Shown here: piece after piece, positions 228 through 51,836 of the stretch | Layout: the number at the start of each line of letters is the position of its first letter | Position numbering within the stretch: position 1 is the first letter of the stretch | Assembly (NCBI RefSeq): GCF_002159835.1 | Contig: NZ_NFJL01000005.1 | Location: 62,001 to 126,000, forward strand | From: Blautia sp. An249 | GTDB taxonomy: Bacteria; Bacillota; Clostridia; Lachnospirales; Lachnospiraceae | Reading direction: 5' to 3' | DNA: 64,000 nucleotides | Notes under the pieces: generated by a model | Told to the model about the DNA's origin: nothing | Database searches by the model: none | What the model saw: the letters and a program-made list of their open reading frames with translations, nothing else | Made by a program: the position numbers and the translations under genes

Positions 228-242
228 TTTCATTCATATTTA
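228..242 (+). promoter_or_regulatory. Element-type promoter motif (TTTC-N3-CATATTTA), exact
   Basis: TTTC at 228-231 and CATATTTA at 235-242, 31 bases before the ATG at 274. It matches the motif shared by more than twenty units of this element exactly. No TTGACA-like -35 box is visible. Confidence 0.7.
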
Positions 243-273
243 TTATATAGAATTTAGGAAGGAGGCTTTCACA

Positions 274-846
274 ATGAAAAAAAGGATTTTTATCGTTTGT
301 TATCTTCTGGGAATCTTACTGACTGGCTGCAACTCTTCTCTCCCTGCGGATGATCCCCCAGAAGAGGTTTCAGCATATTCCAGCAACTCACCACAAGAAG
401 ACGTGCCTTATTATGAAGATATTAAGGGTTCTTCTTTATCCGGAGATATACCGGAAAACCTTATGACTGTATCAAAGGCCCAGGAAATGTTCGGGGGAAT
501 TGGCTTTTCTGACTACGCCAAAGAAAATGTGGACACCGCCACATCGTATACAGCTACTACCGAGGCAAGTACTCTGTCCCTGAAAGCCGATGACAATGAA
601 GTTGTCACAAATATAAAGTTTACCACGAAAATGAATCCCCTGGAGAATGCATTAAAAGAAATCAACTGCTTTTTATCTATTGCTTCGGGTCAAGATCTTT
701 CGCCGGAAGAACAAACTTCCATTAAAGAAATCTTCTCCGATACGCAAAAAGAGAATACCGATGTAAACTCTGTAAAACTCAATGACCAGGTCTTCCTGCT
801 ATGGGCAGATACGAAAAACCAACAATATTCAGTTATCTGGGAATAA
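274..846 (+). CDS. Putative lipoprotein, 190 aa
   Basis: The product starts with a basic n-region and a hydrophobic core ending in the lipobox LTGC (Cys19), so it should be lipidated and anchored outside the membrane. The mature part is acidic and rich in Ser and Thr, with no recognised domain. A strong GGAAGGAGG site precedes the ATG. The gene is a single unit between an exact element-type motif at 228 and a hairpin terminator at 867. It is one of several surface proteins on this element and may take part in cell contact or conjugation; that role is inference. Confidence 0.8.
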   Translation: MKKRIFIVCYLLGILLTGCNSSLPADDPPEEVSAYSSNSPQEDVPYYEDIKGSSLSGDIPENLMTVSKAQEMFGGIGFSDYAKENVDTATSYTATTEASTLSLKADDNEVVTNIKFTTKMNPLENALKEINCFLSIASGQDLSPEEQTSIKEIFSDTQKENTDVNSVKLNDQVFLLWADTKNQQYSVIWE

Positions 847-866
847 TAAAATCCATAAAGAGAGAA

Positions 867-894
867 GGAGCACGGATACTAAAACCCGTGCTCC
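867..894 (+). terminator. Hairpin terminator after the lipoprotein gene
   Basis: Arms GGAGCACGG (867-875) and CCGTGCTCC (886-894) pair perfectly and are followed by ATTTCATTTC. The hairpin sits 20 bases after the stop. Confidence 0.7.
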
Positions 895-942
895 ATTTCA
901 TTTCTGAAGTTTCTGTTTACTTCTTCTACACGAATATCTTTT

Positions 943-1263
943 CTATACAAGTTCCTCATTGGCGTCAACCTCAGTGTAAAAACGCGATACAATAGGCACA
1001 CTTCTAATGCCATATCGATTCAGAAATTTCTCCGGTATATTGGCAAAGTCATTCCAATTAAAGCATCCGCAACTGTATTCTAATTCTCTTTTGCCTTCGT
1101 CTGTAGCCAAGTAGTCTTTTGCAATCTTGCGGAACACTTCAATAACATTTGTTTCCGTTCCTTCTTTCATCAGCTCCGCCGGAAGCTCATACATATCAAT
1201 ATACACATTGATATCCATACCATCCTGATCCCTGCGAATCATCGTATATACTCCATTATCCAC
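943..1263 (-). CDS. Hypothetical protein, 106 aa
   Basis: Small acidic protein with a CGCFNWNDF segment in the middle and no family I recognise. The start is GTG at 1263, with AAGGAG seven bases upstream. It follows the CHAP gene on the same strand by 45 bases. A CATATT sequence at the very end of the CHAP gene (about 1310-1316) could provide a separate promoter, but this may be chance. Confidence 0.7.
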   Translation of the reverse strand: MDNGVYTMIRRDQDGMDINVYIDMYELPAELMKEGTETNVIEVFRKIAKDYLATDEGKRELEYSCGCFNWNDFANIPEKFLNRYGIRSVPIVSRFYTEVDANEELV

Positions 1264-1308
1264 TTTGTGTCTCCTTATCTTTGTGTAATTTTAAATTTCT
1301 CTTTGTGT

Positions 1309-2373
1309 CTAATATGCCGGTACGCCATATCCATTGATCTTAGAACTTCCAACAGGATAGCTTCTCTGTTTACACGCATCGCTGCTGTTTCCTTCAATCG
1401 TGTATACGATTCCATTCTCGCATTTCTCAACAATCCCGACATGATCCGCGGTACCGTCACCGCCCCAGTCAAAGAAAATGATATACCCCGGCTCAGGCTC
1501 GCAGTTTCGGTCCATCCACTGACCATTTGCGATAAACCACGGCTTTCCCTGGAACTCACAATGAGCAAACTTTGGAATCACTCCAGCTTCTATGTAACCG
1601 CACTGAGACGCACACCAGCTGACAAAACATGCGCACCATTCTACCCTGCCATTAAATCCATACCACGACCAATAAGGGGCTCCACCCACATTTCCAAGCT
1701 GAGATTTTGCCACTTCGACAATCTCATCGCTTCCAGCTCCGTGTAAATCAAATACCTTGTTTGTCAGAGAACGGGAATACATATAACCGCTTATTCCGTC
1801 TTTTGTCACATATACAACTGCGTTCTCTTCCGTATCTGTATATACCTGTACCGTATCCCCTTCCTTCAGATAACAGATTGCCTCCTCCATCGAAGTGTCT
1901 TTTGTGATATATGCAAACGGCATATTCACCACCATTGTTTTGGAAGACTGTACTACAGGGATTACAAGGTTATCTGCAGATGTTCCCAGATTCACTTTAA
2001 AGGCATAGATCTCGCTTGTTTGCTTCTCTCCATCCTCACCTTTGCTCTGTCCCCATACAACGACATCATATTGATCACGTTCTAAGGTCTCTTCCGGAAT
2101 ATCCAGCACACAATACTGTTTTCCGCTTTTCCCGCTTGTTTCTACTATAGAGTCCCACACAAACTGACCATCTTTTGAGACAGCGTAAAGGATTTGGTCA
2201 GGTGCCTTCCCCTCCTTAGTGTCATAAACAGCAGTAACTTGTCCGTCCTCTTCCCTGACAGATAGAACCTCTGTCTGGAGAACTCCCTCCGCCGCCTGAA
2301 CGGGAACGGGCATATTACATAAGAGTGTCATGACTGCGAGCATACTGCAAAGTATCCGCTTCTTTCTTAACAT
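1309..2373 (-). CDS. Secreted CHAP-domain cell-wall hydrolase, 354 aa
   Basis: The ATG at 2373 is preceded by AAAGGAGGT. It begins a clear signal peptide (MLRKKR, then a hydrophobic core ending VQAAE). The middle contains an SH3b-like stretch (about 190-235). The C-terminal third is a CHAP domain: the catalytic Cys is in WCACFVSWCA and the His in DHVGIVEK, followed by YTIEGNSS. Such enzymes cut peptidoglycan cross-bridges or amide bonds. On a mobile element a CHAP hydrolase often opens the wall for a conjugation channel, which is the likely role here. It is transcribed from its own element-type motif at 2405. Confidence 0.88.
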   Translation of the reverse strand: MLRKKRILCSMLAVMTLLCNMPVPVQAAEGVLQTEVLSVREEDGQVTAVYDTKEGKAPDQILYAVSKDGQFVWDSIVETSGKSGKQYCVLDIPEETLERDQYDVVVWGQSKGEDGEKQTSEIYAFKVNLGTSADNLVIPVVQSSKTMVVNMPFAYITKDTSMEEAICYLKEGDTVQVYTDTEENAVVYVTKDGISGYMYSRSLTNKVFDLHGAGSDEIVEVAKSQLGNVGGAPYWSWYGFNGRVEWCACFVSWCASQCGYIEAGVIPKFAHCEFQGKPWFIANGQWMDRNCEPEPGYIIFFDWGGDGTADHVGIVEKCENGIVYTIEGNSSDACKQRSYPVGSSKINGYGVPAY

Positions 2374-2404
2374 TTTCGCATACCTCCTTTTCTTTTCTAT
2401 ATTG

Positions 2405-2419
2405 AAAGTATGCGAGATA
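2405..2419 (-). promoter_or_regulatory. Element-type promoter motif (TATC-N3-CATACTTT)
   Basis: Read on the minus strand, TATC-TCG-CATACTTT lies about 32 bases before the CHAP gene start. It matches the element consensus with a C in place of the fifth base of CATATT. Confidence 0.6.
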
Positions 2420-2464
2420 TTTACAGACATAAAAATCCAGCGCATAACATGACCTATTTGAACT

Positions 2465-2803
2465 TTATTGTAAAATTCCCCTTTTTCGAAATTTTTCTTT
2501 TTCTGTATTCTGGATTTTTTCCTCAGTTTCCTCATAATCACATTGTACTGCTCCGTTCTCCCAGCCAGCTTCTTTCAGGAGCTCTTCTGCGGCTTCATAG
2601 ATTGTAATCTCCTGGACATCAAGTTGACCTCCATCCAGCAATTCATATCTCTTATTTGCAAAGGTATAGTCATAGCCGTCGTCGCACTCTTGTATAAGAA
2701 AGAATCCCTGTTTGTGATTATAAAAGGCCATCTCTGTCTCAGTCGGGTTCTCGATTGCGCGATGAAGATCTTGCTCTGCTAAATGCTGTATCTTTTCTTC
2801 CAC
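2465..2803 (-). CDS. Hypothetical protein, 112 aa
   Basis: Acidic protein with a basic, glutamine- and lysine-rich tail. No family recognised. GTG start at 2803 with AGAAAGGAGAAAC directly upstream. It ends about 90 bases before the CHAP start, and the CHAP promoter motif lies in that gap. No clear element-type motif was found directly upstream, so it may be cotranscribed with the PP-loop gene. Confidence 0.65.
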   Translation of the reverse strand: MEEKIQHLAEQDLHRAIENPTETEMAFYNHKQGFFLIQECDDGYDYTFANKRYELLDGGQLDVQEITIYEAAEELLKEAGWENGAVQCDYEETEEKIQNTEKEKFRKRGILQ

Positions 2804-2839
2804 CGTTTCTCCTTTCTACAGATGTGTATCCTAATTGTG

Positions 2840-2869
2840 AGGGACCGGCTCGTTGCCCGTCCGATCCCT
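2840..2869 (-). terminator. Weak hairpin between the PP-loop gene and the next unit
   Basis: Nine-base-pair stem, AGGGATCGG against CCGGTCCCT with one G-T pair. There is no strong U tract, so termination is uncertain. Confidence 0.4.
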
Positions 2870-2918
2870 CTTCTTAATCCTATTATTTACCTGCTGCATT
2901 CCTAACTGCCGCCGCGTA

Positions 2919-3680
2919 TTAGGCGGCCTCAGTCTTTCCCGTATCTGATCCGGTTTGCACTTCTTCCATATAACTCCATATTGTAATCTGCTGGTCCTCC
3001 AGAGCAAATCTACGGTCCAAGTCATGAACCGTGCCGTCCGGCCGGAATGTACGTGGGCTCTCAACATCCCACTGCATCATCATCTTCCACAACTCTGGAT
3101 AATCGTGCCGAACCGTTCTCAACGAAGAAAGAGACTGTTTCGGGCAAAAAAAGCAACCCAATCGCTTAAATTTCTTATAAAGAGGATTCATCATGTCTCT
3201 TTCCTGCAAAAAGTTAATGCAATCCTGCTCGGTCATCCTCCAGTCAGCCAATGGTGCTCTGCAATTTGGAGTCAGATGTTTCAATCGTTTTGTTTCATCC
3301 GCTGCAATTCCCAAATAACGAATATGCTCTCCATAAGTTTTGTAGTGCTTCTCTATTGCCCGCAGTTTCAACCGATCGTTGCACCATGCCCCGATTGTAA
3401 ACGGGTACCCATAGATCGCTCCTTTCCTTGCGCCCTTCTTATAAGTCTGATGGAATCCTTCATCAAAACTGATGACTGAAGGTACTCTTGTAATTTTTCT
3501 TCCAATATAACCTTCCAATTTGTCTAAATAATCGTACATTTCCGGGAACTCTGCTCCCATGGTCGGTGTCGCCATCACATTTATAAATACAATGTCGTCA
3601 ATGACCATTCCCATTTCAATCATTTTAATCAACATAGCAGTGCTGTCTTTCCCACCACTTAAGCTTACAATATGCTTCAT
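2919..3680 (-). CDS. PP-loop ATPase of the PAPS-reductase/DndC-like family, 253 aa
   Basis: The P-loop SGGKDSTAM lies at residues 7-15, where this superfamily binds ATP and activates a carboxyl, sulfur or adenylate group. Further along are AWCNDRLKL, NCRAPLADW and the pair CFFC (about 175). These Cys are placed as in phage and plasmid PAPS-reductase-like and DndC-like proteins that handle sulfur transfer. No DndB, D or E partner is visible, so DNA phosphorothioation is not supported here; base or tRNA thiolation is equally possible. ATG 3680 is chosen because GGAG lies eight bases upstream. Phage- and plasmid-borne relatives are common. Confidence 0.82.
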   Translation of the reverse strand: MKHIVSLSGGKDSTAMLIKMIEMGMVIDDIVFINVMATPTMGAEFPEMYDYLDKLEGYIGRKITRVPSVISFDEGFHQTYKKGARKGAIYGYPFTIGAWCNDRLKLRAIEKHYKTYGEHIRYLGIAADETKRLKHLTPNCRAPLADWRMTEQDCINFLQERDMMNPLYKKFKRLGCFFCPKQSLSSLRTVRHDYPELWKMMMQWDVESPRTFRPDGTVHDLDRRFALEDQQITIWSYMEEVQTGSDTGKTEAA

Positions 3681-3807
3681 CCTTCCCATCTCCAGCGTGA
3701 ATTTTGCTATTGATGGGATAAGTCCATGCTTTCCGGTGTGTCCTTTTACTCCGTCTAACCTTCTCTTATTTTTTCGGTGTTTCTATGCGCAATCATTTGA
3801 CACCTGA

Positions 3808-3834
3808 CGGAAACCCCTATACGGGGATTTTCCG
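3808..3834 (-). terminator. Hairpin terminator after the 121-aa gene
   Basis: CGGAAACCCC pairs imperfectly with CGGGGATTTTCCG across a TATA-like loop, about 25 bases downstream of the stop at 3857. Confidence 0.5.
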
Positions 3835-3856
3835 AAGCATATCCAAAAACAGGATA

Positions 3857-4286: not shown

Positions 4287-4301
4287 TGAATATGAAATAA
4301 A
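4287..4301 (-). promoter_or_regulatory. Element-type promoter motif, variant (TTTA-N3-CATATTCA)
   Basis: On the minus strand TTTA-TTT-CATATTCA lies 65 bases before the start at 4222. It differs from the consensus in the last base of TTTC and the end of the CATATTTA block. Confidence 0.5.
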
Positions 4302-4813: not shown

Positions 4814-4828
4814 TAAATATGAGAGAAA
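4814..4828 (-). promoter_or_regulatory. Element-type promoter motif (TTTC-N3-CATATTTA), exact
   Basis: Minus-strand TTTC-TCT-CATATTTA, a full match to the consensus, 51 bases before ATG 4763. Confidence 0.7.
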
Positions 4829-5845: not shown

Positions 5846-6754
5846 ATGAAGATTGACCGTTTGATGGGCATTATATTACATTTGTTGAAAAATGGGAAAA
5901 CATCCGCAGCACAGCTTGCCAATAAGTTTGAAGTAAATACAAGAACTATTATGCGTGATATTGATACCTTGTGTCAGGCGGGTATTCCAATCACATCTGC
6001 TTATGGCGTTCATGGCGGATATGAAATATTAGATACCTATGTATTGGATAAGCATTTAGGAAATGAACGTGATTATAAAAACATAATCAGTGCTTTGCGT
6101 TCAATGGCAAGCGCTTATGAAAATAAAACAATCCAAGAAACGATAGATAAGATAACTTTATTAGCAGAAAATAAGGAAACTGCCATTGAAATTGATTTAG
6201 GGGCGGCACATGAAAATGTAGATACCAATACGCTGATAAGCACTTTGGAAAAGGCAGTCAACGCTCAAAGAACAGTTCAGTTTTTATACACGAATAATGC
6301 AAATGCTTCACATACCGTTTCGGTAGAGCCTGTCGGTGTCGTCTATAAATGGTACAACTGGTATCTTATTGGCTACAGCACAAAGCATGAGGATTACAGA
6401 ATGTACAAGCTGGTCAGAATGGAAGCATTATCTGTGACAGAGCAAAGCATTACGAGGAAGCATTCTCTTAGCAAAGTTATGGAGGAATGGAGTGATACCC
6501 AGCAAATTACAGAAATCAGAGCCATAGGCAGCGCACAGATTAAGATAAAATGCAGGGAGTATTTGAACATAGAGATAACAAGGGAATTTGAGAATGGAGA
6601 TTTTGAGTTTTGTATTCATGTTCCCCAAAATGAAACGTTTTGGTTTGGCGTACTGCTTTCATTTGGGAATAAAGTGAAAGTTTTAGAGCCGCAGGGCATT
6701 ATAGATAAAATTTCACAGACCTGTGAAGAAGTGTTGAGCATTTATAGGAGGTAA
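5846..6754 (+). CDS. HTH (DeoR/HTH_11) - WYL domain transcriptional regulator, 302 aa
   Basis: The N-terminus (1-60) is a winged helix: a LLKNGKTSAAQLANKFEVNTRTIMRDIDTL helix-turn-helix with the arginine-rich recognition helix, followed by HGGYEI. A WYL ligand-binding domain follows (about 140-215), with YKWYNWYLIGYSTKHEDYRMYKLVRM. Such proteins sense a ligand, sometimes nucleic acid, and control neighbouring genes. It is first in a tight four-gene plus-strand cassette and has a palindromic operator upstream. No element-type motif is present, so the cassette looks like acquired cargo. Confidence 0.88.
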   Translation: MKIDRLMGIILHLLKNGKTSAAQLANKFEVNTRTIMRDIDTLCQAGIPITSAYGVHGGYEILDTYVLDKHLGNERDYKNIISALRSMASAYENKTIQETIDKITLLAENKETAIEIDLGAAHENVDTNTLISTLEKAVNAQRTVQFLYTNNANASHTVSVEPVGVVYKWYNWYLIGYSTKHEDYRMYKLVRMEALSVTEQSITRKHSLSKVMEEWSDTQQITEIRAIGSAQIKIKCREYLNIEITREFENGDFEFCIHVPQNETFWFGVLLSFGNKVKVLEPQGIIDKISQTCEEVLSIYRR

Positions 6755-6756
6755 GC

Positions 6757-7971
6757 ATGGTGGATTTTACCATAGAAAAGTATTATACAAAGCAGCAGAT
6801 ACGCAGGGGGCTGGCGCATTATCAGAATATAGACCATTCAGAAAAATTGTATGGAACAGACGGAATAAAAAAGCTGATGAGGAAACTGCATTCCATTCAG
6901 TATGATCCGTTGAATGTGGTCGGACGCAACGCTGATTTGGTACTGCAAGCCCGAATTGCGGATTACCGAAGCGAAATGCTGGAGTACCTGCTTTATACGG
7001 AGCATTTTCTTACAGACGGATTTGATAAGGAAATGTGCATTTATATTACAGAGGACTTTGAAAGGTTTGAAAATGTCAGACAGATACAGGCGCAGTCAGC
7101 CGAGCGCACTTTGTCGTACAGAGGGCAGACAGAAGCGTTGAATATATTGCAGGAAGTAAGAGCATTTGTGTCTGCAAATGGTTTAACGGGAACAAAAGAT
7201 ATTTCAATCGGAGAGGTAAGAGAAAGCCGGTGGGGGCATAAGAAACTATCCAGTGCGGCGTTGGATTATCTGTATACAAAAGGGGAATTATGCGTTGCAA
7301 AAAAGATTGGGACACAAAAACAGTTCGATTTGACTGAACGTGTGATACCAAAAGACTATTTTTCGGGCTTTCGTTTTATGACGATAGAACAGTTTTTGGA
7401 CTGGTATGTAAAAAGGAGAATTGCGGGCGTAGGTATTTTGTGGGGAAAACGGGGCGGCGCATGGCAGGGTAATTATTTATGGGATAATGAACTGCGAAAA
7501 AGCACGATAGCCAGATTAGCAGAAAAAGGGGAACTTAAAGTTATTCATGTGGAGGGGATTACAGAAGAATTTTACTGCTGTGAGGATTTTCTCGAATCCC
7601 TGAAAAGTGAAAGGGCAAGTGACTACGCCAGATTTATCGCACCGCTTGACAACATGATATGGGACAGAAAAATGACAGAAAGTATATTTGATTTTTCATA
7701 CAGTTGGGAGGTATATACGCCAGTATCAAAACGGAAATATGGGTATTATGTCCTTCCCGTTTTATACAATGATAGCTTTGTTGCACGTTTTGAAGCTGTT
7801 CCTGTAAGTAAAGGCAAGTGCTTTGAAATTAAAAACTGGTGGTGGGAAAAGGGGGTTTTAACTGATGAAAAAATAACAAATACGATTATGGAAGAAATGG
7901 AAAGGTTTGCAGATTTGCATAACGTAACGTTAAGCAGCAAAAATCAAAAACAGTTGGAGGTAAGATTATGA
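6757..7971 (+). CDS. Winged-helix DNA-binding protein of the YcaQ/AlkX (HTH_42) family, 404 aa
   Basis: The hallmark HSIQYDPLNVVGRNADLVLQARI lies near residues 45-70, and a later WEVYTPVSKRKYGYYVLPVL segment fits the HTH_42 fold. E. coli YcaQ (AlkX) in this family is a DNA glycosylase that unhooks interstrand cross-links and removes alkylated bases; Streptomyces relatives give self-resistance to genotoxins. The glycosylase role here is family knowledge, not shown. The gene starts 2 bases after the WYL gene and overlaps the next by 4, so the set is one operon, perhaps a damage-inducible repair cassette. Confidence 0.85.
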   Translation: MVDFTIEKYYTKQQIRRGLAHYQNIDHSEKLYGTDGIKKLMRKLHSIQYDPLNVVGRNADLVLQARIADYRSEMLEYLLYTEHFLTDGFDKEMCIYITEDFERFENVRQIQAQSAERTLSYRGQTEALNILQEVRAFVSANGLTGTKDISIGEVRESRWGHKKLSSAALDYLYTKGELCVAKKIGTQKQFDLTERVIPKDYFSGFRFMTIEQFLDWYVKRRIAGVGILWGKRGGAWQGNYLWDNELRKSTIARLAEKGELKVIHVEGITEEFYCCEDFLESLKSERASDYARFIAPLDNMIWDRKMTESIFDFSYSWEVYTPVSKRKYGYYVLPVLYNDSFVARFEAVPVSKGKCFEIKNWWWEKGVLTDEKITNTIMEEMERFADLHNVTLSSKNQKQLEVRL

Positions 7972-8336
7972 GTGAAATAACCAGATTAGATGTCAGTGAA
8001 GAATGGGCACATACAGGTATTGTGAAAGCGGGGGACTACTGTTTTTTGAGTTATTGTGTCGGAAATACAGACGGCTCAACCGAGGAACAGATTAACGGGG
8101 CTTTTGATGTAATGGGGAAAAGATTAGCGTTGTTTGGCTTAACGCTTGAGAACGTAGTTCAAATGGACTGTTTATTTCGGGATGTGTGGAATATTCCTAT
8201 CATGGAAAAGGTTATAAAAGAGAGATTTCACGGGAAGTATCCAGTCCGTAAATCAATCCAGACCAATTTCGCAGACAAAGGAGGCGAAAACGGATTGAAA
8301 TTTCAAGTTGATGCCATTGCATATTGCGGGAAATAA
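7968..8336 (+). CDS. RidA/YjgF-family protein, 122 aa
   Basis: Length and pattern fit the Rid fold, with FLSYCVGNTDGSTEEQINGAFDVMGKRLALFGLTLENVVQMDCLF and a C-terminal DAIAYC strand. Most RidA proteins hydrolyse reactive enamines and imines. The usual catalytic Arg of RidA (in PxR(S/A)) may correspond to the R of PVRKSIQTNF, so deaminase activity is possible but unproven. It overlaps the upstream gene by 4 bases (ATGA). Confidence 0.8.
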   Translation: MSEITRLDVSEEWAHTGIVKAGDYCFLSYCVGNTDGSTEEQINGAFDVMGKRLALFGLTLENVVQMDCLFRDVWNIPIMEKVIKERFHGKYPVRKSIQTNFADKGGENGLKFQVDAIAYCGK

Positions 8337-9756: not shown

Positions 9757-9771
9757 TTAATATGAAAGAAA
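9757..9771 (-). promoter_or_regulatory. Element-type promoter motif (TTTC-N3-CATATTAA)
   Basis: Minus-strand TTTC-TTT-CATATTAA, 35 bases before the gene start at 9722. Confidence 0.65.
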
Positions 9772-12179: not shown

Positions 12180-12436
12180 TATCAGCAGAGTCTGATGTCT
12201 GAGGGCACTGCTTTTTCACCTTTCAGCCGGTCCGTCCGTGCCTGCTTGTGGAGCATGCAGCCCGGCGTGTATGGCACATTCTGTTTACTCAGGAGCTGCA
12301 TCCCCTGTTACAGCACCAGCAAGAAATGCTGATGGGGTGCATGCTGATAACGCGAGGTTCCAGTCACCTTACACAGCCCGGGATAAACTCTCTCCTTCAG
12401 GTTCCTCAAATCCCGATCGGAAAGGATGGTGATACC
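12180..12436 (+). ncRNA. Candidate bridge RNA region of the IS110 element
   Basis: The non-coding leader before the transposase contains several nested stem-loops. GCATCCCC at about 12298 pairs with GGGGTGC at 12334-12340, and a CAGCA...TGCTG pair lies inside. IS621 and relatives express a bridge RNA from this position that pairs with both target and donor DNA. The assignment here is by position and structure only; the target- and donor-binding loops were not resolved. Confidence 0.45.
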
Positions 12437-13735
12437 ATGTTAAAGATCAACTTCATGTCCACTCTGTTTGTCGGTATTGACGTTAGTTCAAAATCCAATG
12501 TCGTTTACGCTATGGATTTTTATAAGAACAAGTACATCTCTTCCTCTTTCGCCAATAATCAGCCTGGAGCTGAGGAATTAGCCGGTATGATCCTGGATTG
12601 TCTGCATAAGCATCCGGATCTGACAACAGTTGTGGCCGCTTTGGAATCCACTTCCGTCTACAGTGTTCATATCGCAAATTATCTGTCCACCTGCGAACGC
12701 CTTATGTCTTACAAACCCTACGTCTTTTGTCTAAACCCGAAGATGACGGCCAATTACAGAAAGTCATTCATTGGCTTATCAAAGACAGACCCTCTTGATG
12801 CGTTCGTCATCGCAGATTTTGCCAGAGCTGGGCGGATTGAGTGTGAACCATGGCGAGGCAGTCAATATCTGGCTTTAAAGCGCCTTACCAGGCACCGTCT
12901 GCATCTTGCGGGATGTATCTCCCGTGAGAAGACCTATATGGTTTCCAACCTGTATCTGAAGTTTAGTGAACTACAGCTTCTCCAAGATGATGATCGGCCC
13001 TTCAGCAATCTCTACGGTGCGGCATCCTCTGCTGTTCTTACGGAGTTTATGTCCGTTCAGGACATCATTGATGCTCCGGAAGAAGAACTGCTCCAGTTTC
13101 TGGCTCAAAAGAGCAGGAACCGGATCCAGGACCTGTCAAAGACATCGGCTTTATTAAAAAAAGCTGCTCGTGATTCTTATCGCCTGGACAAATGCATGTA
13201 TGAGCCGATCAATATCTCTTTAGCGAGTTCCTTTAATTGCATTGAAACCTATCAGAAAGAGATCAAAGCAATTGATAAAGCCATCGAAAAAACAATTCGG
13301 GGCATGACGCCGAATGCATTGACTATCCTGCAGTCCATCCCCGGCATCGGTCCTGTCTGGGCCGCAGGGATGATTGCTGAAATCGGGAGCATCTCCGCAT
13401 TTCATTCCTCAGATGCTCTGGCTAAGTATGCTGGTTTGACCTGGAGACGCAATGATTCCGGTGATTTTGAGGCCGAGGATACACCGGTTACCAAAGCTGG
13501 CAACAGCTATCTCCGGTACTATTTCGGTGAAGCAGCTAACAGTGTCCGGCGTCATATTCCGGAATATCAGGCGTATTACGCTAAAAAATATGCTGAAGTT
13601 CCTAAGCATCAGCACAAGAGAGCACTCGCACTTACATCTCGTAAACTTGTACGACTCGTTTTTGGATTGCTGGCCAAAAACCAACTGTACACCGGCGAAC
13701 AACTGGACGCCGAACCGAATAAAGAGTCGAACTGA
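12437..13735 (+). CDS. IS110-family DEDD transposase, 432 aa
   Basis: The N-terminal RuvC-like domain shows GIDVSSKSN (Asp), ALESTSVYS (Glu) and KTDPLDAFVIADFAR (the DxxD pair), giving the DEDD set. The C-terminal Transposase_20 domain shows SIPGIGPVWAAGMIAEIG and then KAGNSYLRYYF, whose Ser is the expected nucleophile. ATG 12437 follows AAAGGATGG; a longer open frame upstream lies in the structured RNA and is not coding. It appears intact. Confidence 0.92.
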   Translation: MLKINFMSTLFVGIDVSSKSNVVYAMDFYKNKYISSSFANNQPGAEELAGMILDCLHKHPDLTTVVAALESTSVYSVHIANYLSTCERLMSYKPYVFCLNPKMTANYRKSFIGLSKTDPLDAFVIADFARAGRIECEPWRGSQYLALKRLTRHRLHLAGCISREKTYMVSNLYLKFSELQLLQDDDRPFSNLYGAASSAVLTEFMSVQDIIDAPEEELLQFLAQKSRNRIQDLSKTSALLKKAARDSYRLDKCMYEPINISLASSFNCIETYQKEIKAIDKAIEKTIRGMTPNALTILQSIPGIGPVWAAGMIAEIGSISAFHSSDALAKYAGLTWRRNDSGDFEAEDTPVTKAGNSYLRYYFGEAANSVRRHIPEYQAYYAKKYAEVPKHQHKRALALTSRKLVRLVFGLLAKNQLYTGEQLDAEPNKESN

Positions 13736-16267: not shown

Positions 16268-16282
16268 AAAATATGCATGAAA
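16268..16282 (-). promoter_or_regulatory. Element-type promoter motif (TTTC-N3-CATATTTT)
   Basis: Minus-strand TTTC-ATG-CATATTTT, 38 bases upstream of the gene at 16230 and just after the terminator of the par operon. Confidence 0.65.
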
Positions 16283-18056: not shown

Positions 18057-18071
18057 CCAATATGACTGATT
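18057..18071 (-). promoter_or_regulatory. Element-type promoter motif (AATC-N3-CATATTGG)
   Basis: Minus-strand AATC-AGT-CATATTGG, 23 bases upstream of parM. Two bases differ from the consensus at the ends. Confidence 0.5.
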
Positions 18072-19619: not shown

Positions 19620-19634
19620 AAAATATGCCGGAAA
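19620..19634 (-). promoter_or_regulatory. Element-type promoter motif (TTTC-N3-CATATTTT)
   Basis: Minus-strand TTTC-CGG-CATATTTT, 96 bases upstream of the CAP-domain gene. Confidence 0.6.
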
Positions 19635-19962: not shown

Positions 19963-19977
19963 TTTCCTGCATATTTA
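19963..19977 (+). promoter_or_regulatory. Element-type promoter motif (TTTC-N3-CATATTTA), exact
   Basis: TTTC at 19963-19966 and CATATTTA at 19970-19977, 47 bases before the plus-strand PP2C operon. Confidence 0.7.
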
Positions 19978-20023: not shown

Positions 20024-20716
20024 ATGTATGGATTGCTCGGACCACAACAAAAACTATCCGAAGTTCAGGAAATGTTACTGGGGAAACGCCAGCACTATTC
20101 CGCAGCTTTTCTGGATCGTATCACCGGAGATATTAATATCTATGAAGCTCTCCGGTATATTTTTGAAGCCTATCTGGAATGGACGCCCTATCAGGTCAGG
20201 GACTGCCTAACCCATGATATTATCCGCCTGTTAAGGCTGGAGCCATTAATTAACCGAATTCCGTGCCCACCGGAATTAGACCGTACAAGGGATCTGGAAT
20301 ATATCGCATGGTATATTTATCCTCAGACCGTCAACTGCAATCAGCGTGATCTTGCCATCAAGGTGTATCACCGTCTGAACAAAGGCGAAATTTCCCGGTT
20401 CCCAAAAGGATATTTTGACGGTACTGTTCAAGGATGGTTCCGTGCAAGATGTGCCTTTCAGTGTATGCTGATTGAATATCTGCCCCCTTTTGAGAATCTG
20501 GAAGCGTTATATGCATACTTTGCAAGCCCCAGAGGAAAGGACGCGATCCGCAAATATAAACTGTTGGTTCCACTGAGAGAGTTGTATGAATCCCCTCTTG
20601 AATACCTGCATGATTCTTTGAGTTCACAGCAAAAGGACGAAGCTTTATATCAGAAATACAGGAAACGACACTCTGGCAGTCCTAAAAAGGAAGGAGGCTT
20701 TCCAATTGAAACGTAA
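20024..20716 (+). CDS. Hypothetical protein, 230 aa
   Basis: Soluble, helix-rich protein with many aromatics (YEALRYIFEAYLEWTPYQVRD, LEYIAWYIYPQTVNCNQRDLAIKVYHRLNKG). No family recognised. ATG 20024 follows AAAGGAG. It is first in a three-gene operon with a lipoprotein and a PP2C phosphatase; the overlaps suggest linked function. Confidence 0.75.
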   Translation: MYGLLGPQQKLSEVQEMLLGKRQHYSAAFLDRITGDINIYEALRYIFEAYLEWTPYQVRDCLTHDIIRLLRLEPLINRIPCPPELDRTRDLEYIAWYIYPQTVNCNQRDLAIKVYHRLNKGEISRFPKGYFDGTVQGWFRARCAFQCMLIEYLPPFENLEALYAYFASPRGKDAIRKYKLLVPLRELYESPLEYLHDSLSSQQKDEALYQKYRKRHSGSPKKEGGFPIET

Positions 20717-21197
20717 AATTTTATTTTATGCTTTTTCTGTAAGCCTGTTATTTTCCGGATGTTCCTCCAAAAGTATATCTGGTAATGACTGGTTGCTGGA
20801 GCAGTCTTTTTCGTACTCAGATTTGGAACAAGCCAGTTTAAGTATTTCGGATCTCTTTTCACTCTATTTTGTAGGTGCGGTTGATAAAAAGGACATCCTC
20901 AATGAATTAGAACTTTTGACTGCCCAGATTTCATTCAGTCAGGAGCAATACCTTGAAGGAATAGAGGCGATCTCTCCGTCCAGTCACTCCTATGCGTCTA
21001 AGAGCGGGGAAGAAGCTCTTACTACTTCCTATGAGATTACATTGGATTTTCTTGATAATGCGGAACTGCTCCTAAAAGCAGGCGAACAGCAACAGCTCAT
21101 GTATGAATATTTAGAATGGCGTGAACTATTGATTACTCAAATCGCTACATATTGCACAGCAATAGATCTTGTATCTGAAAAGGAGGAGAACCCATGA
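20706..21197 (+). CDS. Putative lipoprotein, 163 aa (TTG start)
   Basis: TTG at 20706 follows AAGGAAGGAGG and begins MKRKILFYAFSVSLLFSGC, a lipoprotein signal with lipobox FSGC. The mature part is helical and acidic. The gene overlaps both neighbours (11 and 4 bases), so translation is coupled. It sits with a PP2C phosphatase and could be the membrane partner of that signalling unit. Confidence 0.8.
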   Translation: MKRKILFYAFSVSLLFSGCSSKSISGNDWLLEQSFSYSDLEQASLSISDLFSLYFVGAVDKKDILNELELLTAQISFSQEQYLEGIEAISPSSHSYASKSGEEALTTSYEITLDFLDNAELLLKAGEQQQLMYEYLEWRELLITQIATYCTAIDLVSEKEENP

Positions 21198-21979
21198 CCA
21201 GTATTTATTCCTATGATGGGAAATCAGACATCGGATATCAAAAAAGTATCAACGAAGATTTCATTGATGCTGTGGAACTTGACGAGCGCACTTTACTGCT
21301 TTTTGTAGCAGACGGAACCAACAGCGATCCAGACGGCGGCTTACAGCCAGCTTCCATTGCAATACACGAAATGGGTACTATGCTTAAGCGTATTTTCGAG
21401 AAATCAGCCTCTGCATTTTTGATGAATCCCGAGCTGTTTCTGACAGAAGCCTTTGAATTCACAAATCGAATTCTTATGGTTTTTACAGCCGCCAACAAAG
21501 ATCGCTTTGCAGGATTCGGGTGCAGTCTCGCCTGCTGTCTCATATACCAAAAAGAGAATCAAACCTGTGCCACTGTTGTAAATGCCGGGAATACCCGTTT
21601 CTATTTAATCCGGTTAACCAAAGGGACACCCGCTATTCACCAGCTTACAACTGATCATACCCGCGCTTCCGATATGGTGTTAACAGGCCAGATCTCAGAA
21701 GAGGAGTATTACTCACATTTGGACCGGCTGGTCCTGACCAGCGGACTCGGCATTTTACCGGAGCCCAAACTCCAGATTCTTGATAATCTGTCTATTAAGA
21801 AGAACGATATTTTACTGATGACAACAGACGGCATCCACTATGCGATACGACCGGAAGCGCTCTCTGATATTGTCCTCCAATCCGGCACCTGCTCGGATGC
21901 TGCGAAAAGCCTGATTGAAGCTGCAAAAATAGAGAAATATCCCGACAACATGTCTGCCCTTATTGCATACATTCCGTAA
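21194..21979 (+). CDS. PP2C-type (PPM) protein phosphatase, 261 aa
   Basis: The fold is marked by YDGKSDIGYQKSINEDF near the N-terminus, LLLFVADGTNSDPDGG (motif with metal-binding Asp), FAGFGCSLACCLI, VVNAGNTRFYLIR (the GDSR-like strand) and LLMTTDGIHY. The usual DG-G metal motif is present as ADGTNSDPDGG. PPM phosphatases remove phosphate from Ser/Thr using Mn or Mg. No kinase is visible in the window, so the target is unknown. Confidence 0.82.
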   Translation: MTSIYSYDGKSDIGYQKSINEDFIDAVELDERTLLLFVADGTNSDPDGGLQPASIAIHEMGTMLKRIFEKSASAFLMNPELFLTEAFEFTNRILMVFTAANKDRFAGFGCSLACCLIYQKENQTCATVVNAGNTRFYLIRLTKGTPAIHQLTTDHTRASDMVLTGQISEEEYYSHLDRLVLTSGLGILPEPKLQILDNLSIKKNDILLMTTDGIHYAIRPEALSDIVLQSGTCSDAAKSLIEAAKIEKYPDNMSALIAYIP

Positions 21980-22977: not shown

Positions 22978-22992
22978 TAAATATGAATGAAA
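22978..22992 (-). promoter_or_regulatory. Element-type promoter motif (TTTC-N3-CATATTTT)
   Basis: Minus-strand TTTC-ATT-CATATTTT, 29 bases before ATG 22949. This is one of the shortest leaders, so the transcription start must lie within about 10 bases of the motif. Confidence 0.7.
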
Positions 22993-32446: not shown

Positions 32447-32461
32447 TAAATATGATAGACA
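32447..32461 (-). promoter_or_regulatory. Element-type promoter motif (TGTC-N3-CATATTTA)
   Basis: Minus-strand TGTC-TAT-CATATTTA, one base from consensus, before the envelope operon. Confidence 0.65.
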
Positions 32462-33840: not shown

Positions 33841-33855
33841 TATCTCTCATATTTT
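33841..33855 (+). promoter_or_regulatory. Element-type promoter motif (TATC-N3-CATATTTT)
   Basis: TATC 33841-33844 and CATATTTT 33848-33855, 46 bases before the remA-like gene and divergent from the motif at 33793. Confidence 0.65.
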
Positions 33856-36017: not shown

Positions 36018-36032
36018 GAAATATGCCCACCA
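36018..36032 (-). promoter_or_regulatory. Element-type promoter motif, partial (CATATTTC)
   Basis: Minus-strand CATATTTC, 34 bases before the gene at 35984. The upstream part is TGGT instead of TTTC. Confidence 0.45.
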
Positions 36033-38797: not shown

Positions 38798-38812
38798 TTA
38801 ATATGATGGAAC
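38798..38812 (-). promoter_or_regulatory. Element-type promoter motif (GTTC-N3-CATATTAA)
   Basis: Minus-strand GTTC-CAT-CATATTAA, 70 bases before recJ. Confidence 0.55.
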
Positions 38813-40020: not shown

Positions 40021-40035
40021 TAAATATGACAGATA
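40021..40035 (-). promoter_or_regulatory. Element-type promoter motif (TATC-N3-CATATTTA)
   Basis: Minus-strand TATC-TGT-CATATTTA, 33 bases before ATG 39988. Full CATATTTA. Confidence 0.7.
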
Positions 40036-40188: not shown

Positions 40189-40203
40189 TGTCTCGCATAC
40201 TTA
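40189..40203 (+). promoter_or_regulatory. Element-type promoter motif (TGTC-N3-CATACTTA)
   Basis: TGTC 40189-40192 and CATACTTA 40196-40203 at the head of the long leader of the radical SAM gene. Confidence 0.55.
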
Positions 40204-41693: not shown

Positions 41694-41708
41694 CAAATAT
41701 GACAGGAC
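41694..41708 (-). promoter_or_regulatory. Element-type promoter motif (GTCC-N3-CATATTTG)
   Basis: Minus-strand GTCC-TGT-CATATTTG, 33 bases before ATG 41661. Confidence 0.55.
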
Positions 41709-46776: not shown

Positions 46777-46791
46777 TTAAAATGCAAGATA
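46777..46791 (-). promoter_or_regulatory. Element-type promoter motif (TATC-N3-CATTTTAA)
   Basis: Minus-strand TATC-TTG-CATTTTAA, 69 bases before ATG 46708. Confidence 0.5.
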
Positions 46792-47992: not shown

Positions 47993-48322
47993 TCATATTC
48001 CACAGTAGTCAAACACCTCTGAGTCATCCTCAATTTCATCTAAATCCTGTATACTATGCCCATCTTCCAAATAGGCTTTTACAGCATCAAAATAGAATCT
48101 TTCCGGTGTATCCCTCATATCAATATCGGTAATATCCAAATCACTAACCAGAAAAGCAAGGCATTCTTTAATTATATTTTGATCCGCAGTGCTATACCCT
48201 GAAAGCTCAGTTTCAATAAACGCCTGAACTTTTTCCATATTAAACACTAACTGTTCTCCATTCTTGTATACAGTTCTTTCAGTCATGTCGGAATCTGAAA
48301 GTATACTTTCCACGATATTCAT
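47993..48322 (-). CDS. Hypothetical acidic protein, 109 aa
   Basis: Very acidic (ends DLDEIEDDSEVFDYCGI), similar in charge to DNA mimics or antirestriction proteins, though no motif shows this. Third gene of the operon 49136 to 47993. Confidence 0.65.
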   Translation of the reverse strand: MNIVESILSDSDMTERTVYKNGEQLVFNMEKVQAFIETELSGYSTADQNIIKECLAFLVSDLDITDIDMRDTPERFYFDAVKAYLEDGHSIQDLDEIEDDSEVFDYCGI

Positions 48323-48384
48323 TTCCCTTCACTCTTTATCGCAGCAAAAAGCATAATCGCTAAGTTAAATAGCAGCCCTTTGAA

Positions 48385-48627
48385 TCATTCCATCGAATAT
48401 GCCTCAATATATTCTTCCAGCGCTTTTGAATTGATCTCCAATGATTTAGAAATAGAGTCAACATTAATATGACCTTCAAATCGATAAAATGGACCTGCTT
48501 TAATTACACACGAATATGTTCCCATTTCTCGTTTCATTTTTCTCTCCATTTTTTTCCGCTTATCTCTTGTAATCTTAACTCCTGTTTCGGTTTCAACAAT
48601 TTGCAGAAGATTATCAATTAATATCAT
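48385..48627 (-). CDS. Hypothetical protein, 80 aa
   Basis: Basic centre (KITRDKRKKMERKMKREM) and acidic end. ATG 48627 follows GAGGTGAAC. Second gene of the operon. Unknown function. Confidence 0.65.
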   Translation of the reverse strand: MILIDNLLQIVETETGVKITRDKRKKMERKMKREMGTYSCVIKAGPFYRFEGHINVDSISKSLEINSKALEEYIEAYSME

Positions 48628-48698
48628 ATCTTTAGTTCACCTCGAATAACATTTATCTGATACTCTGACATTTTCTTAATATTCAGTATCTACATCAT

Positions 48699-49136
48699 CT
48701 AAATCACCTTTCTCAAAGCGACTTCTGATGCTTTATTGAACCCATTCAGCAACTTTTCATTATTTTGAACATCTTCCCATGTCAGGCCAAGTGCTTCCAA
48801 CGTGTCTTTCGGATCACCTGTCCAACCATATCCATAGTTTCTCATCTCCCGCAGGAACATCTTATATACAAACTCTTCTCCAGATTCATCTGCAGAAATA
48901 AAATCTCTGATTTCCTTTCTATGTCTGGAAAACATCTCGTGCATATTATCCCGATCTTTTTTCTGCACATATCCTCCATTCCCAATGCTGACGATCTTGT
49001 TGATATCCTTTTCGTAATCTAATCCCCATTTTCTCATCATTTCGACAAACTGAGCCGGGCTAAAGGCAAACCCAAACGGGAACTCATTAACCTCTTTTTG
49101 ATGCCTCTTTTTTAATTCTAAATAACTCTCCATCAT
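48699..49136 (-). CDS. Hypothetical protein, 145 aa
   Basis: Helical protein (MMESYLELKKRHQKEVNEFPFGFAFSPAQFVEMM) not recognised. Several close ATG codons near 49136-49142; AGAGGTTG favours 49136. First gene of the operon, with an element-type motif 96 bases upstream. Confidence 0.65.
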   Translation of the reverse strand: MMESYLELKKRHQKEVNEFPFGFAFSPAQFVEMMRKWGLDYEKDINKIVSIGNGGYVQKKDRDNMHEMFSRHRKEIRDFISADESGEEFVYKMFLREMRNYGYGWTGDPKDTLEALGLTWEDVQNNEKLLNGFNKASEVALRKVI

Positions 49137-49231
49137 ATTCATCAACCTCTTGAATCTTAAAAACAATATACTCAAATTTCTATTTCAATCCCTACTTTTC
49201 TGCCCTCCCTTCTTCTTTGGTATACTCACTT

Positions 49232-49244
49232 AGAATATGCGATA
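49232..49244 (-). promoter_or_regulatory. Element-type promoter motif, variant (TATC-N1-CATATTCT)
   Basis: Minus-strand TATC-G-CATATTCT, with a shortened spacer, before the operon at 49136. Confidence 0.4.
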
Positions 49245-49318
49245 ACATCTGGTTATTAAAAAACTGACAGCGTTCATTTCCCGAATATTTTTACGCATCT
49301 GTTGTACACAGATAAGCC

Positions 49319-49351
49319 GAGGGCTGTTGCACTAAATGTACAACAGCCCTC
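49319..49351 (-). terminator. Hairpin terminator
   Basis: GAGGGCTGTTG (49319-49329) pairs perfectly with CAACAGCCCTC (49341-49351), downstream of the duplicated Rpn gene end. Confidence 0.8.
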
Positions 49352-49376
49352 CATTGTTTCAATAATCTATTCTGTT

Positions 49377-49573
49377 TTTCAAAGCTACTTCTTTGCTAAT
49401 GCCCTTGTATATTCTTCCCGTTCGGATTCCGGTATTCCAAGAGCCCCCATTGCCTGCTCTTTCGTCAATTTCATGTTTTTCATAAGATTCATAAGAGAGA
49501 GGATAACGCCTTCCCGATGCCCTTCCCGACGTCCCTTTTCTTCTACTCCTTTACTCAGGTTACACATTGTAAT
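49377..49573 (-). pseudogene. Duplicated 3' end of the Rpn-family gene
   Basis: The sequence repeats 49608-49820 with only scattered differences. It encodes CNLSKGVEEKGRREG ... SLMNLMKNMKLTKEQAMGALGIPESEREEYTRALAKK without the nuclease part. It lacks two 12-base repeat units present in the intact gene. A tandem duplication of a gene end; it may be expressed as an extra tail by read-through but has no clear start. Confidence 0.75.
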
Positions 49574-49607
49574 TTTCCCTCCACAACGAGACAGCAATTA
49601 ATACTTT

Positions 49608-49820
49608 CAAACTATTTCTTTGCCAATTCCCTTGTATATTCTTCCCGTTCGGATTCCGGTATTCCAAGAGCCTCCATTGCCTGCTCTTTCGTCAATTTCA
49701 TGTTTTTCATAAGATTCATAAGGGAAAGGATTACGCCTTCCTGACGCCCTTCCTGACGCCCTTCCTGACGCCCTTCCCGACGTCCCTTTTCTTCTACTCC
49801 TTTACTCAGGTTACACATAA
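49608..49820 (-). repeat. Tandem copy pair and internal 12-base repeats
   Basis: This copy pairs with 49377-49573 as a head-to-tail repeat about 231 bases apart. Inside it CTTCCTGACGCC is repeated three times (about 49736-49775), giving RQEG repeats in the protein. Confidence 0.75.
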
Positions 49821-50598
49821 GCTGCACCTCACTTTCAAATGTTCTATCCATCTCAATAGAAAACTCTTCTTGCAATATCTTCTTTTTCTCATCGGCTTCT
49901 CTTTCAGAGGATAAGAGTACTTCCAATAGCTTCAAAATACCCGAGTCTGCATTTTCGCTTTCCCCGCTCATGCAAAGCATAACCGCTGATAAAAGATCAT
50001 AATTCTCAACCGCCTCTGTCGCGTTTCCCACCAGCTTCTCTTCTGTTATAGAATAACGGTTAATTGTATTCTTCCGCTTTTCCGGCGGATTTTTACATAA
50101 CCATATGGAGCACACTTTTTTAATCTTATCGTACTTCGGAGCAGTAAACTCAGTTCCGTACTGGGAGGAAATCATCCTTGAACAGTAATAGATTGCCCTT
50201 TTAATGATCGGATATCCCGGGTAAAAATTCGACTGCGCTTCTATGTTAATGAATAAACTTACCATATCGTCTGTCCCTGGCACCAGAGCTCGAAAACGAA
50301 TATCATAAGTGATTGTTCCTTCATGTATCGTGCTGTCCTCAGTATTCATTCCCTGGATTTGTTCATTACCTACTATTTCATCTGGGTTTACCGGCTCCTG
50401 TGCGATCTGTGGAGTACCCTCGATATATTTCTCCGCAATCTCCTTCACGTCGCATTCTCTGTATTCCTCCAGACAGCTTTTCATAATCCATGCCAAAATA
50501 ATCTTATTGGCGAGCAATCGTTTGCATGCCGAATCATAAGCCGCGCTTTCTCCCGCTGCCGTTATATGTTTTGCCAATGTATTTTCCAATTTCACCAT
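49612..50598 (-). CDS. Rpn/PD-(D/E)XK nuclease-family protein, 328 aa
   Basis: YDIRFRALVPGTDDMVSLFINIEAQSNFYPGYPIIKRAIYYCSRMIS is the Rpn-type nuclease signature: Asp, then the E-x-Q of IEAQ, then an Arg/Lys helix. The tail holds GRQEGRQEGRQEG repeats and KLTKEQAMEALGIPESER, typical of Lachnospiraceae Rpn proteins. E. coli Rpn proteins promote RecA-independent recombination and variable tail repeats are a known trait. No element-type motif upstream, so it may have been acquired separately. Confidence 0.85.
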   Translation of the reverse strand: MVKLENTLAKHITAAGESAAYDSACKRLLANKIILAWIMKSCLEEYRECDVKEIAEKYIEGTPQIAQEPVNPDEIVGNEQIQGMNTEDSTIHEGTITYDIRFRALVPGTDDMVSLFINIEAQSNFYPGYPIIKRAIYYCSRMISSQYGTEFTAPKYDKIKKVCSIWLCKNPPEKRKNTINRYSITEEKLVGNATEAVENYDLLSAVMLCMSGESENADSGILKLLEVLLSSEREADEKKKILQEEFSIEMDRTFESEVQLMCNLSKGVEEKGRREGRQEGRQEGRQEGVILSLMNLMKNMKLTKEQAMEALGIPESEREEYTRELAKK

Positions 50599-50749
50599 GT
50601 TCCTTTCCGGTATGTTCCTATTTTGATTTTATCATAGCCGTCAAAAATAATCTATTCTTTTTTATTGCTGACAGTTAGCTGTTAGCATTCACTCAATATT
50701 TATTTTTCCCACCAATAAGACCTCCGTTTTTTTCATTGCAATGTTAACA

Positions 50750-51076
50750 CTATTCACTAATAAGATATTCATACGGTCCATATTTTAAAAAGAGCCCTAT
50801 ATTCTCTATTTCATGTATCCTAAGTTCATCTCCTTCTCGTTCTCCATTCATAAATATGAACCTCTCATCTATCAGAGTAGTTTCAGTAGAATTTTCTTTG
50901 CATCTTTCTCGTATTCGTAATCCTATTCCCAATGACTTCAAAACGCGAACCGCACCGCCCTTAATAAAATATTGGCGCAAGTTTTCCGTACATCTATTCA
51001 GATGTTCATTAGTAAGTGGAACTCCGTAAAAATATTTTGAAACTATATCTCTGTATTCGAAATAGTTACAAGTCAT
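50750..51076 (-). CDS. Hypothetical protein, 108 aa
   Basis: Small mixed protein (MTCNYFEYRDIVSKYFYGVPLTNEHLNRCTENLRQYF). ATG 51076 follows GGAGG. Starts 40 bases after the zinc-ribbon gene, likely cotranscribed. Unknown function. Confidence 0.65.
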   Translation of the reverse strand: MTCNYFEYRDIVSKYFYGVPLTNEHLNRCTENLRQYFIKGGAVRVLKSLGIGLRIRERCKENSTETTLIDERFIFMNGEREGDELRIHEIENIGLFLKYGPYEYLISE

Positions 51077-51116
51077 CATTTCCTCCAATCTTTTCTACAC
51101 TTCAAAAAAAACTGCC

Positions 51117-51740
51117 TTATCCTTCCATTTCCCCATACAGAACCTCTAGCTTACCATCACGGAACTGTGTAACATAACTATGTTCCTTGTATTCCGATTC
51201 TTTTGCCAGTTCTAGTGCTTTTTCTACACCCAGATCTTCAAGATAATAAAGCGCTCCTCCTAAACAACATATACCATGCCCTTGTTTCTCTTCTTGTCTT
51301 GGTACAGGATGGGTATGTTGCAAAAAAGTTTTGCTGTCTTCTTTTATGATCTTCCTGTTATACCAGAAAGATAAATAGACTTCTATTTCCTCCTTTTTGC
51401 TGTCTGTTTTCACAATATAGGCCTTTTTGTCTATACTGTTCAATTCTTCTTGCGTAATATTACGACTAAAAGGACAAAATCTTTTTAGGAGCTCCATTTC
51501 CGACTTTACATAATCAAAGCTAGGTCCTTTAGGAATATATCCTATCGTCTTTTCATCTATTTCATATAGATCTGTTTTCATTACAAAGTTTCCACTTTCA
51601 TCCGTTTCATATGTATAACTCTTCTTGTAACCACATCTGGGACAAAAAGTCAATCTTTCTCCCGTCCTATAGTTATAATCGTCCATTGCGAATTCATATG
51701 AGCACTGCTCGCACTCGATACACATCTGTACACTTCCCAT
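51117..51740 (-). CDS. Zinc-ribbon protein, 207 aa
   Basis: ATG 51740 follows AGGAGG. The first 35 residues hold two Cys pairs, CIECEQC and CPRCGYKK, 19 residues apart, a zinc ribbon. The rest is alpha/beta with a short CCLGGALYYLEDLG segment. Such ribbons bind nucleic acid or protein partners. No known family named. It lies next to the element end, with an element-type motif upstream. Confidence 0.72.
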   Translation of the reverse strand: MGSVQMCIECEQCSYEFAMDDYNYRTGERLTFCPRCGYKKSYTYETDESGNFVMKTDLYEIDEKTIGYIPKGPSFDYVKSEMELLKRFCPFSRNITQEELNSIDKKAYIVKTDSKKEEIEVYLSFWYNRKIIKEDSKTFLQHTHPVPRQEEKQGHGICCLGGALYYLEDLGVEKALELAKESEYKEHSYVTQFRDGKLEVLYGEMEG

Positions 51741-51821
51741 TTTATTTCCTCCTGTCTTCTTCAACCAAAAAGTATCCTTTTTTCTCTCTTGTCCCTCCAT
51801 TCATCATTTTCTAGTCCATAT

Positions 51822-51836
51822 TCAGTATGAAAGAAA
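51822..51836 (-). promoter_or_regulatory. Element-type promoter motif (TTTC-N3-CATACTGA)
   Basis: Minus-strand TTTC-TTT-CATACTGA, 82 bases before ATG 51740. Confidence 0.55.

Follow-up and report, generated by a model that had tools for sequence, protein, structure and literature searches.

A shared promoter-like block and a candidate cognate sigma factor on a very large element of Blautia sp. An249

Introduction

Are the genes of a very large mobile element switched on together, through a promoter and a sigma factor of the element's own? The question is raised by a 64 000-nucleotide (nt) stretch of Blautia sp. An249 DNA (the window; C45:62001-126000, where C45 is a 207-kb contig), which was described in an original prediction as carrying one block of about 15 bases in front of more than twenty transcription units, and as pointing to a dedicated transcription programme. 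The analysis reported here shows that the motif is real, sits before genes and is restricted to this element and to a second contig of the same genome, C17. A gene for a sigma-70 family protein lies inside the motif-bearing stretch, beyond the part seen in the original prediction, and we consider, with a probability of about three in four, that host RNA polymerase carrying this protein would use the block as core promoter for a regulon that spans the element. A dedicated programme served by an element-encoded sigma factor is therefore supported, and the interpretation in the original prediction is, overall, partly supported.

If this is correct, the pair would be a sigma factor and promoter that work without a -35 box, and would show how a very large element can place replication, pilus and partition under one programme apart from that of its host. 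Annotated sigma factors exist on mobile elements, but the promoters that they use have rarely been identified. A search of the open-access literature, which left most subscription journals outside, found no paper on this motif or this sigma factor.

Results

A block in front of leading genes of the element

C45:2001-206000 was joined and genes were called by a simple script. For all counts the element was taken as C45:34,000-114,100, and the flanks as C45:2-34 kb and C45:114-206 kb. Motif discovery with 50 random starts was performed on the leaders of 65 leading genes, each with at least 60 nt in front, and gave AattTct.tCATATT as the top motif (log-likelihood ratio 166.8), so that the block was recovered de novo and extended. 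Exact TTTC-N3-CATATT was counted seven times in the window, the number given in the original prediction, against an expectation of 0.44 (the earlier guess was 0.1), and none of 100 shuffles reached seven. TWTC-N3-CATATTTA with up to two mismatches occurred 51 times in the window, against 23.8 expected and a shuffle maximum of 35 (n = 100).

A weight matrix was built from the element leaders and applied at a cut-off of 8.5 to sites lying at most 130 nt before a gene; site scores on C45 are partly circular because the matrix was trained on this element, and C17 (54 kb) was kept out of training as the held-out test. The block was found before 27 of the 65 leading genes of the element and before none of the 64 in the flanks (0/23 at C45:2-34 kb and 0/41 at C45:114-206 kb). 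Eighteen of the 27 lie within the window, and the figure of more than twenty units thus holds for the whole element and not for the window alone. Within operons, one of 24 element genes carried it. At 9.5 or above, the element held 26 sites, 21 of them intergenic and at most 120 nt from a gene on the same strand, whereas the rest of C45 held none to the left and a single intragenic site to the right. The exact core TWTC-N-KK-CATATTWA occurred 12 times in the 3.94-Mb genome (assembly contamination estimate 3.2%): six times on C45, all within the element, three times on C17 and three times elsewhere; the reversed pattern occurred once.

Of twenty positions listed earlier, 17 scored at least 8.7, and those at 36018 (0.8), 42622 (4.0) and 47894 (6.5) failed. 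The remark that cargo genes and the polymerase operon lack the block was confirmed, with best scores of 2.3 before the first gene of the Y-family polymerase operon, 4.1 for the WYL/AlkZ genes and 3.9 for the Wadjet SMC-like gene.

Anatomy of the block

Thirty intergenic sites scoring at least 8.5 gave the consensus AA-TWTC-TKK-CATATTTA, in which the leading AA and a trailing pyrimidine-purine start form part of the block. With CATATT set as -12 to -7, position -12 was C in 97% of these sites, +1 was a purine in 29/30 and -1 a pyrimidine in 21/30. The absence of a TTGACA box, asserted from the start, was confirmed at 15-19 nt spacing in 39 sites, the mean best match being 2.95 of 6 against 2.97 (standard deviation 0.13) in shuffled upstream sequence. 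The test for an extended -10 element (TGn) failed in the 30 sites (T in 57% at -15, G in 23% at -14), and outside AA-TWTC every upstream position of the 30 aligned sites carried at most 0.5 bit, sporulation-sigma -35 boxes not being scanned for. In layout it thus resembles a -10 box flanked by a private extension on the upstream side and a start point on the other.

The held-out contig C17

In the first 50 kb of C17, 13 sites reached 8.5, against a mean of 2.3 and a maximum of 9 for column-shuffled matrices (n = 100), and 10 reached 9.5 (shuffled mean 0.9, maximum 5). They stood before 7 of 25 leading genes at 8.5 and 10 of 25 at 7.5, and before none of 22 genes within operons. The nine intergenic C17 sites had a purine at +1 in eight cases, a pyrimidine at -1 in seven and AA in front in seven. 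Together with the 26 intergenic C45 sites at most 120 nt from a gene, they bring the candidate promoters to about 35.

C17 carries genes for a DNA polymerase III alpha chain, SSB, an exonuclease and Flp/Tad pilus parts (T2SSF, RcpC/CpaB and a ParA-like ATPase); with these genes and the shared block, the contig may encode the element's apparatus for transfer or attachment. C45 and C17 shared no DNA by blastn at 1e-3, and no end overlap was found among C45, C17 and the start of contig C5. A 36-kb contig of another genome (G353:C44) holds homologues of genes from both, two of them adjacent, and because of this mixture C45 and C17 are probably parts of one kind of element.

A sigma factor encoded in the motif-bearing stretch

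The candidate reader of the block is a 337-amino-acid (aa) protein encoded on the plus strand at C45:47947-48960 (window -14053 to -13040). It was matched by PF04545 (region 4, the -35-binding helix-turn-helix; 30.8 bits, cut-off 24.1) and, over regions 2 to 4 (residues 59-282), by TIGR02937 (59.8 bits, cut-off 42.9). Its best PHROG match was phrog_351, a general sigma family. Assignment to the SigB/SigF/SigG subfamily was rejected, since TIGR02980 gave 59.4 bits against a curated cut-off of 234.35. An AlphaFold model was mediocre (mean predicted local distance difference test 68.5, predicted template modelling score 0.46); the rows listed in structure comparison were mostly sigma factors, most at a root-mean-square deviation of 22-27 over several domains, and region 4 alone matched 1rio_H at 1.6 A over 61 residues.

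The family is small. Thirteen database proteins were found at E 0.001, and 11 of them (P0002-P0012; 49-80% identical) were aligned with the element protein, P0001 (99% identical, its own cluster) and P0013 (25%) being omitted. The family model gave a single match, in the protein's own genome, in each of three overlapping samples (397, 392 and 394 genomes), and profile and protein searches of genome contigs and viral contigs returned no further sigma-bearing locus; viral contigs gave no match to four other element proteins either. With the sigma factor as query, tblastn returned 11 records from plasmids and 7 from phages; identity was 22-29%, and coverage stayed below 80% throughout.

Region 2.4 of the protein is FTTFVSKYIIHEI and fits the C of the CATA-type box. 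Its His126 aligns with Q of the host SigA-like factor (the Q437 equivalent), with G of two SigF/G-like factors and with N of a SigE-like one, labels that we presume from sequence signatures. His stood at this place in all 11 family rows covering it and in none of seven informative host sigma factors (nine of 17 region-2 places were aligned; C5c and C18 were wrongly cut and had a gap at the tested place). In profile alignment to PDB entries, His was opposite Q in two of the four printed alignments. According to a review (PMC2613000), a T-to-C change at -12 is suppressed in sigma70 by either Q437H or T440I, while -14G is the base with which H455 and E458 interact. The element protein keeps H455, and E458 is replaced by Ala in 11 of 12 rows and by Ser in one. 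A conserved family peptide, M(V/A)HN(T/A)S(P/S)HY, falls opposite region 2.5/3.0 in the alignment and might recognize TWTC. About 50 conserved residues extend past region 4 (C45:48810-48960), possibly a partner-binding site.

The sigma gene itself has no block (best score 2.9), nor have four helix-turn-helix-regulator-like genes, recognized by eye, at C45:47013, 51379, 60582 and 61086. A sigmaA-like TGGACT-17-TATAAT lies about 190 nt before the sigma gene and is weak, as many such sites being present in shuffles.

Proposed mechanism

We infer that the element sigma factor reads the block, and with it the residue-base contacts and the timing of its production; the link between protein and motif is drawn from their co-location, the restriction of the motif to the element and the fit of the residues. 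CATATT would be the -10 box, with His126 accounting for C at -12; TWTC (-19 to -16) and the preceding AA would be an upstream extension, probably contacted by region 2.5/3.0 in place of a -35 box, and transcription would start at the conserved purine 7 nt past the box. Since its gene has no block, host sigmaA would make the first sigma factor, which would then activate replication, partition, surface and other genes of no assigned role jointly on C45 and C17. A shared promoter and a sigma factor of its own suggest that the element probably turns on its genes as one set through a private start signal.

A wider proposal seems to us evenly poised between right and wrong: that a rare, divergent sigma family on a giant mobile element reads a promoter class wholly through regions 2 and 3 (TWTC and CATATTTA, no -35 box), that its specificity draws in part on a natural equivalent of the laboratory mutation Q437H, and that this one factor drives C45 and C17, with the partition system, an element-encoded DNA polymerase III and a Tad-type pilus among its targets. 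With one protein, about 35 candidate promoters and a prediction at the level of residues, the pairing is testable with that protein and a few templates.

Comparison with related elements

Eight contigs of other genomes that share a pair of 704- and 810-aa proteins with the element (704-aa protein 25-33% identical) were used as controls. tblastn with the element sigma factor gave no match on them, the block preceded 0/305 of their leading genes at 8.5 and 2/305 at 7.5, and motif discovery on each (12 to 60 leaders) peaked at log-likelihood ratios between 40.8 and 77.2, always with a motif other than this one. The pair lies at C45:54223-58763, has no Pfam, NCBIfam or PHROG match and is present in eight other genomes and in plasmid OY725878, marking a wider element family. 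That plasmid (247 kb), with homologues of genes of both contigs, held 15 sites at 8.5 (shuffled mean 6.8, maximum 16).

Discussion

Several results weigh against reading the block as the promoter of the element sigma factor. The first motif run, on 100 unfiltered genes, many of them inside operons, placed purine-rich leader patterns at the top; the CATATT motif ranked fifth at width 18 and was not among the seven motifs listed at width 15, and it rose to the top once the set was narrowed to the 65 genes preceded by 60 nt or more. At 8.5 the block is absent from 38 of the 65 leading genes. The Pfam model of region 2 (PF04542) does not report the protein, and two of the four printed PDB alignments displace the key residue by four. 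The controls are distant, so that the contrast with them is suggestive and not a clean pair, and at least three of them (G369:C3, G159:C114 and G025:C33) carry other, smaller sigma-like proteins. In G025, nine sites reached 9.5 anywhere in 100 kb (shuffled mean 2.8, maximum 7), none of them before leading genes; raw density alone is therefore no discriminator, and position before genes is what discriminates.

Four other explanations were weighed. The block could be bound by an element-encoded activator (or repressor), host sigmaA using CATATT as a poor -10 box with help from a protein at TWTC. Activator-dependent promoters often have no -35 box, as is the case at these sites, and several regulator-like genes recognized by eye (those at C45:60582, 61086 and 51379 among them) could supply the protein; TWTC, however, lies just 3 nt from the -10 box, presumably too close for a usual dimeric activator, the consensus shows no apparent inverted or direct repeat, and the nearly invariant C at -12 stands where sigmaA prefers T, so that we consider this explanation unlikely. 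Slightly less likely still is transcription by a host alternative sigma factor. SigE, SigK and SigG are known to use CATA-type -10 boxes, and SigE- and SigF/G-like factors are present in the host by sequence signature. The sporulation factors suggested in the original prediction fit in the CATA part alone: no -35 box appears conserved, no upstream position outside AA-TWTC exceeding 0.5 bit, the block is missing from the flank leading genes, and nine of the 12 exact cores in the genome lie on the C45 element and C17.

It is improbable that another polymerase or sigma factor, hidden among proteins without a family, reads the block. Large proteins without a Pfam family do occur (704, 810, 967 and 653 aa on C45; 1005 and 1314 aa on C17, the last with a marginal PHROG match). 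An element RNA polymerase, which the original prediction had allowed for, found no support, the genome having one beta' gene (PF00623, on C55; single-subunit enzymes were not searched for with a model) and the element proteins having no RNA-polymerase-type DFDGD string beyond TSP3-like repeats and one 216-aa protein; the consensus also resembles the -10 box of a sigma factor, and its start point is spaced as is usual for one. Least probable is that duplication has spread a repeated leader of which the block is a part, without a regulatory role of its own. By eye the similarity of the leaders does extend past the block, to GAYGAAAGGAGG-type ribosome sites, but the bases that flank and separate the conserved positions differ among copies, the block occurs on both strands and on a second contig, and the two contigs have no DNA in common by blastn.

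Individual blocks and neighbouring genes

The blocks in the window are as follows.
228..242, plus strand, exact promoter block, score 12.4
2405..2419, minus strand, promoter block before a CHAP-domain gene (PF05257), score 8.9
4287..4301, minus strand, promoter block missed in the original prediction, score 10.2
4814..4828, minus strand, exact promoter block, score 12.8
9757..9771, minus strand, exact promoter block, score 12.4
16268..16282, minus strand, exact promoter block, score 11.1
18057..18071, minus strand, promoter block before a ParM-like gene (ALP_N; PHROG partition protein), score 8.7
19620..19634, minus strand, exact promoter block before a CAP-domain gene, score 11.5
19963..19977, plus strand, exact promoter block ahead of three genes, the last for a PP2C phosphatase, score 12.9
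22978..22992, minus strand, exact promoter block, score 12.4
32447..32461, minus strand, promoter block before genes for 187, 653 and 401 aa, score 9.9
33841..33855, plus strand, promoter block, score 11.0
38798..38812, minus strand, promoter block before a RecJ-like gene (DHH, RecJ_OB), score 9.4
40021..40035, minus strand, promoter block, score 12.9
40189..40203, plus strand, promoter block about 290 nt before a radical-SAM gene as called, score 9.3
41694..41708, minus strand, promoter block, score 9.6
46777..46791, minus strand, promoter block before an integrase-like gene (PF00589), score 9.8
51822..51836, minus strand, promoter block at the right end, score 9.9

Nine blocks, all on the minus strand and with scores of 8.9 to 12.4, lie to the left of the window.
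Window -25620 (C45:36380), minus strand, outermost block
Window -24719, minus strand, block before a DnaG-type zinc ribbon gene
Window -23348, minus strand, block of a TSP3-repeat protein
Window -18760, minus strand, block before two RecD2-like helicase genes
Window -18293, -9559, -7820 and -2412, minus strand, four further blocks
Window -3186, minus strand, block before the 704/810-aa pair

A further block, on the minus strand at C45:49062 (window -12938; score 11.2), faces the sigma gene from its 3' side across a hairpin and might give rise to an antisense feedback RNA. The run behind one of the best blocks (20024-21979) encodes 230 aa, 163 aa and the PP2C-type phosphatase, and a phosphatase within the regulon might signal to the sigma factor or a partner.

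The element also contains an IS110-family transposase gene (12248-13735) and an operon-like group without a block (5846-8336) for a WYL-domain regulator, an AlkZ-like DNA glycosylase and a Ribonuc_L-PSP-like protein, the last below the Pfam cut-off. Wadjet-type genes (JetD, an SMC-like ATPase, DUF4194/MksE-like and JetA; 53211-59655) adjoin its right side, the SMC-like gene being without a block. The left flank (C45:2001-22000) matched 12 other genomes of the genus in scattered pieces only, and the right flank (C45:166001-186000) matched four of four genomes in pieces of up to about 3.7 kb. At the right end lies an N-terminal uvrB fragment (104 aa, 52220-52534) with 91% identical protein matches on contigs of two related elements (G159:C114 and G025:C33). 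That it is half of the host gene was rejected, the DNA being 77% identical over 267 bases and host uvrB standing in an open 669-aa frame on C5; the fragment is possibly the trace of an attachment site acquired in a different host.

Comparison with known systems

SPO1 gp28 and T4 gp55 are element-encoded factors that redirect host polymerase to element promoters, with promoter sequences that differ from the block. SigE, SigK and SigG resemble the element sigma factor in C at -12 and in a region 2.4 of the shape xxEI; they use -35 boxes, and the host factors have N or G at the Q437 place where the element sigma factor has H. At extended -10 (TGn) sigma70 promoters, as PMC2613000 describes them, bases upstream of the -10 box can likewise replace a -35 box, whereas the element block has no TG at -15/-14, its extension being TWTC at -19 to -16, and E458 is replaced in its sigma factor. 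Conjugative transposons of Clostridioides difficile offer another case of putative sigma factors on Firmicute mobile elements that have been suggested to transcribe element genes; their promoters are said in a start-site study (PMC7438776) to remain unidentified, and here a candidate motif is at hand. The nearest working analogue, by its regulon, is SigN (ZpdN) of the Bacillus subtilis plasmid pBS32: according to PMC6751061, this mobile replicon encodes a sigma factor that has its own consensus and a regulon, located mainly on the plasmid, that includes replication-related genes. The promoters of SigN combine a -35 box (TTTAC) with a -10 box (GATATAAA-type) and SigN activates its own gene, whereas the element block differs in consensus and has no -35 box, and the element sigma gene has no block.

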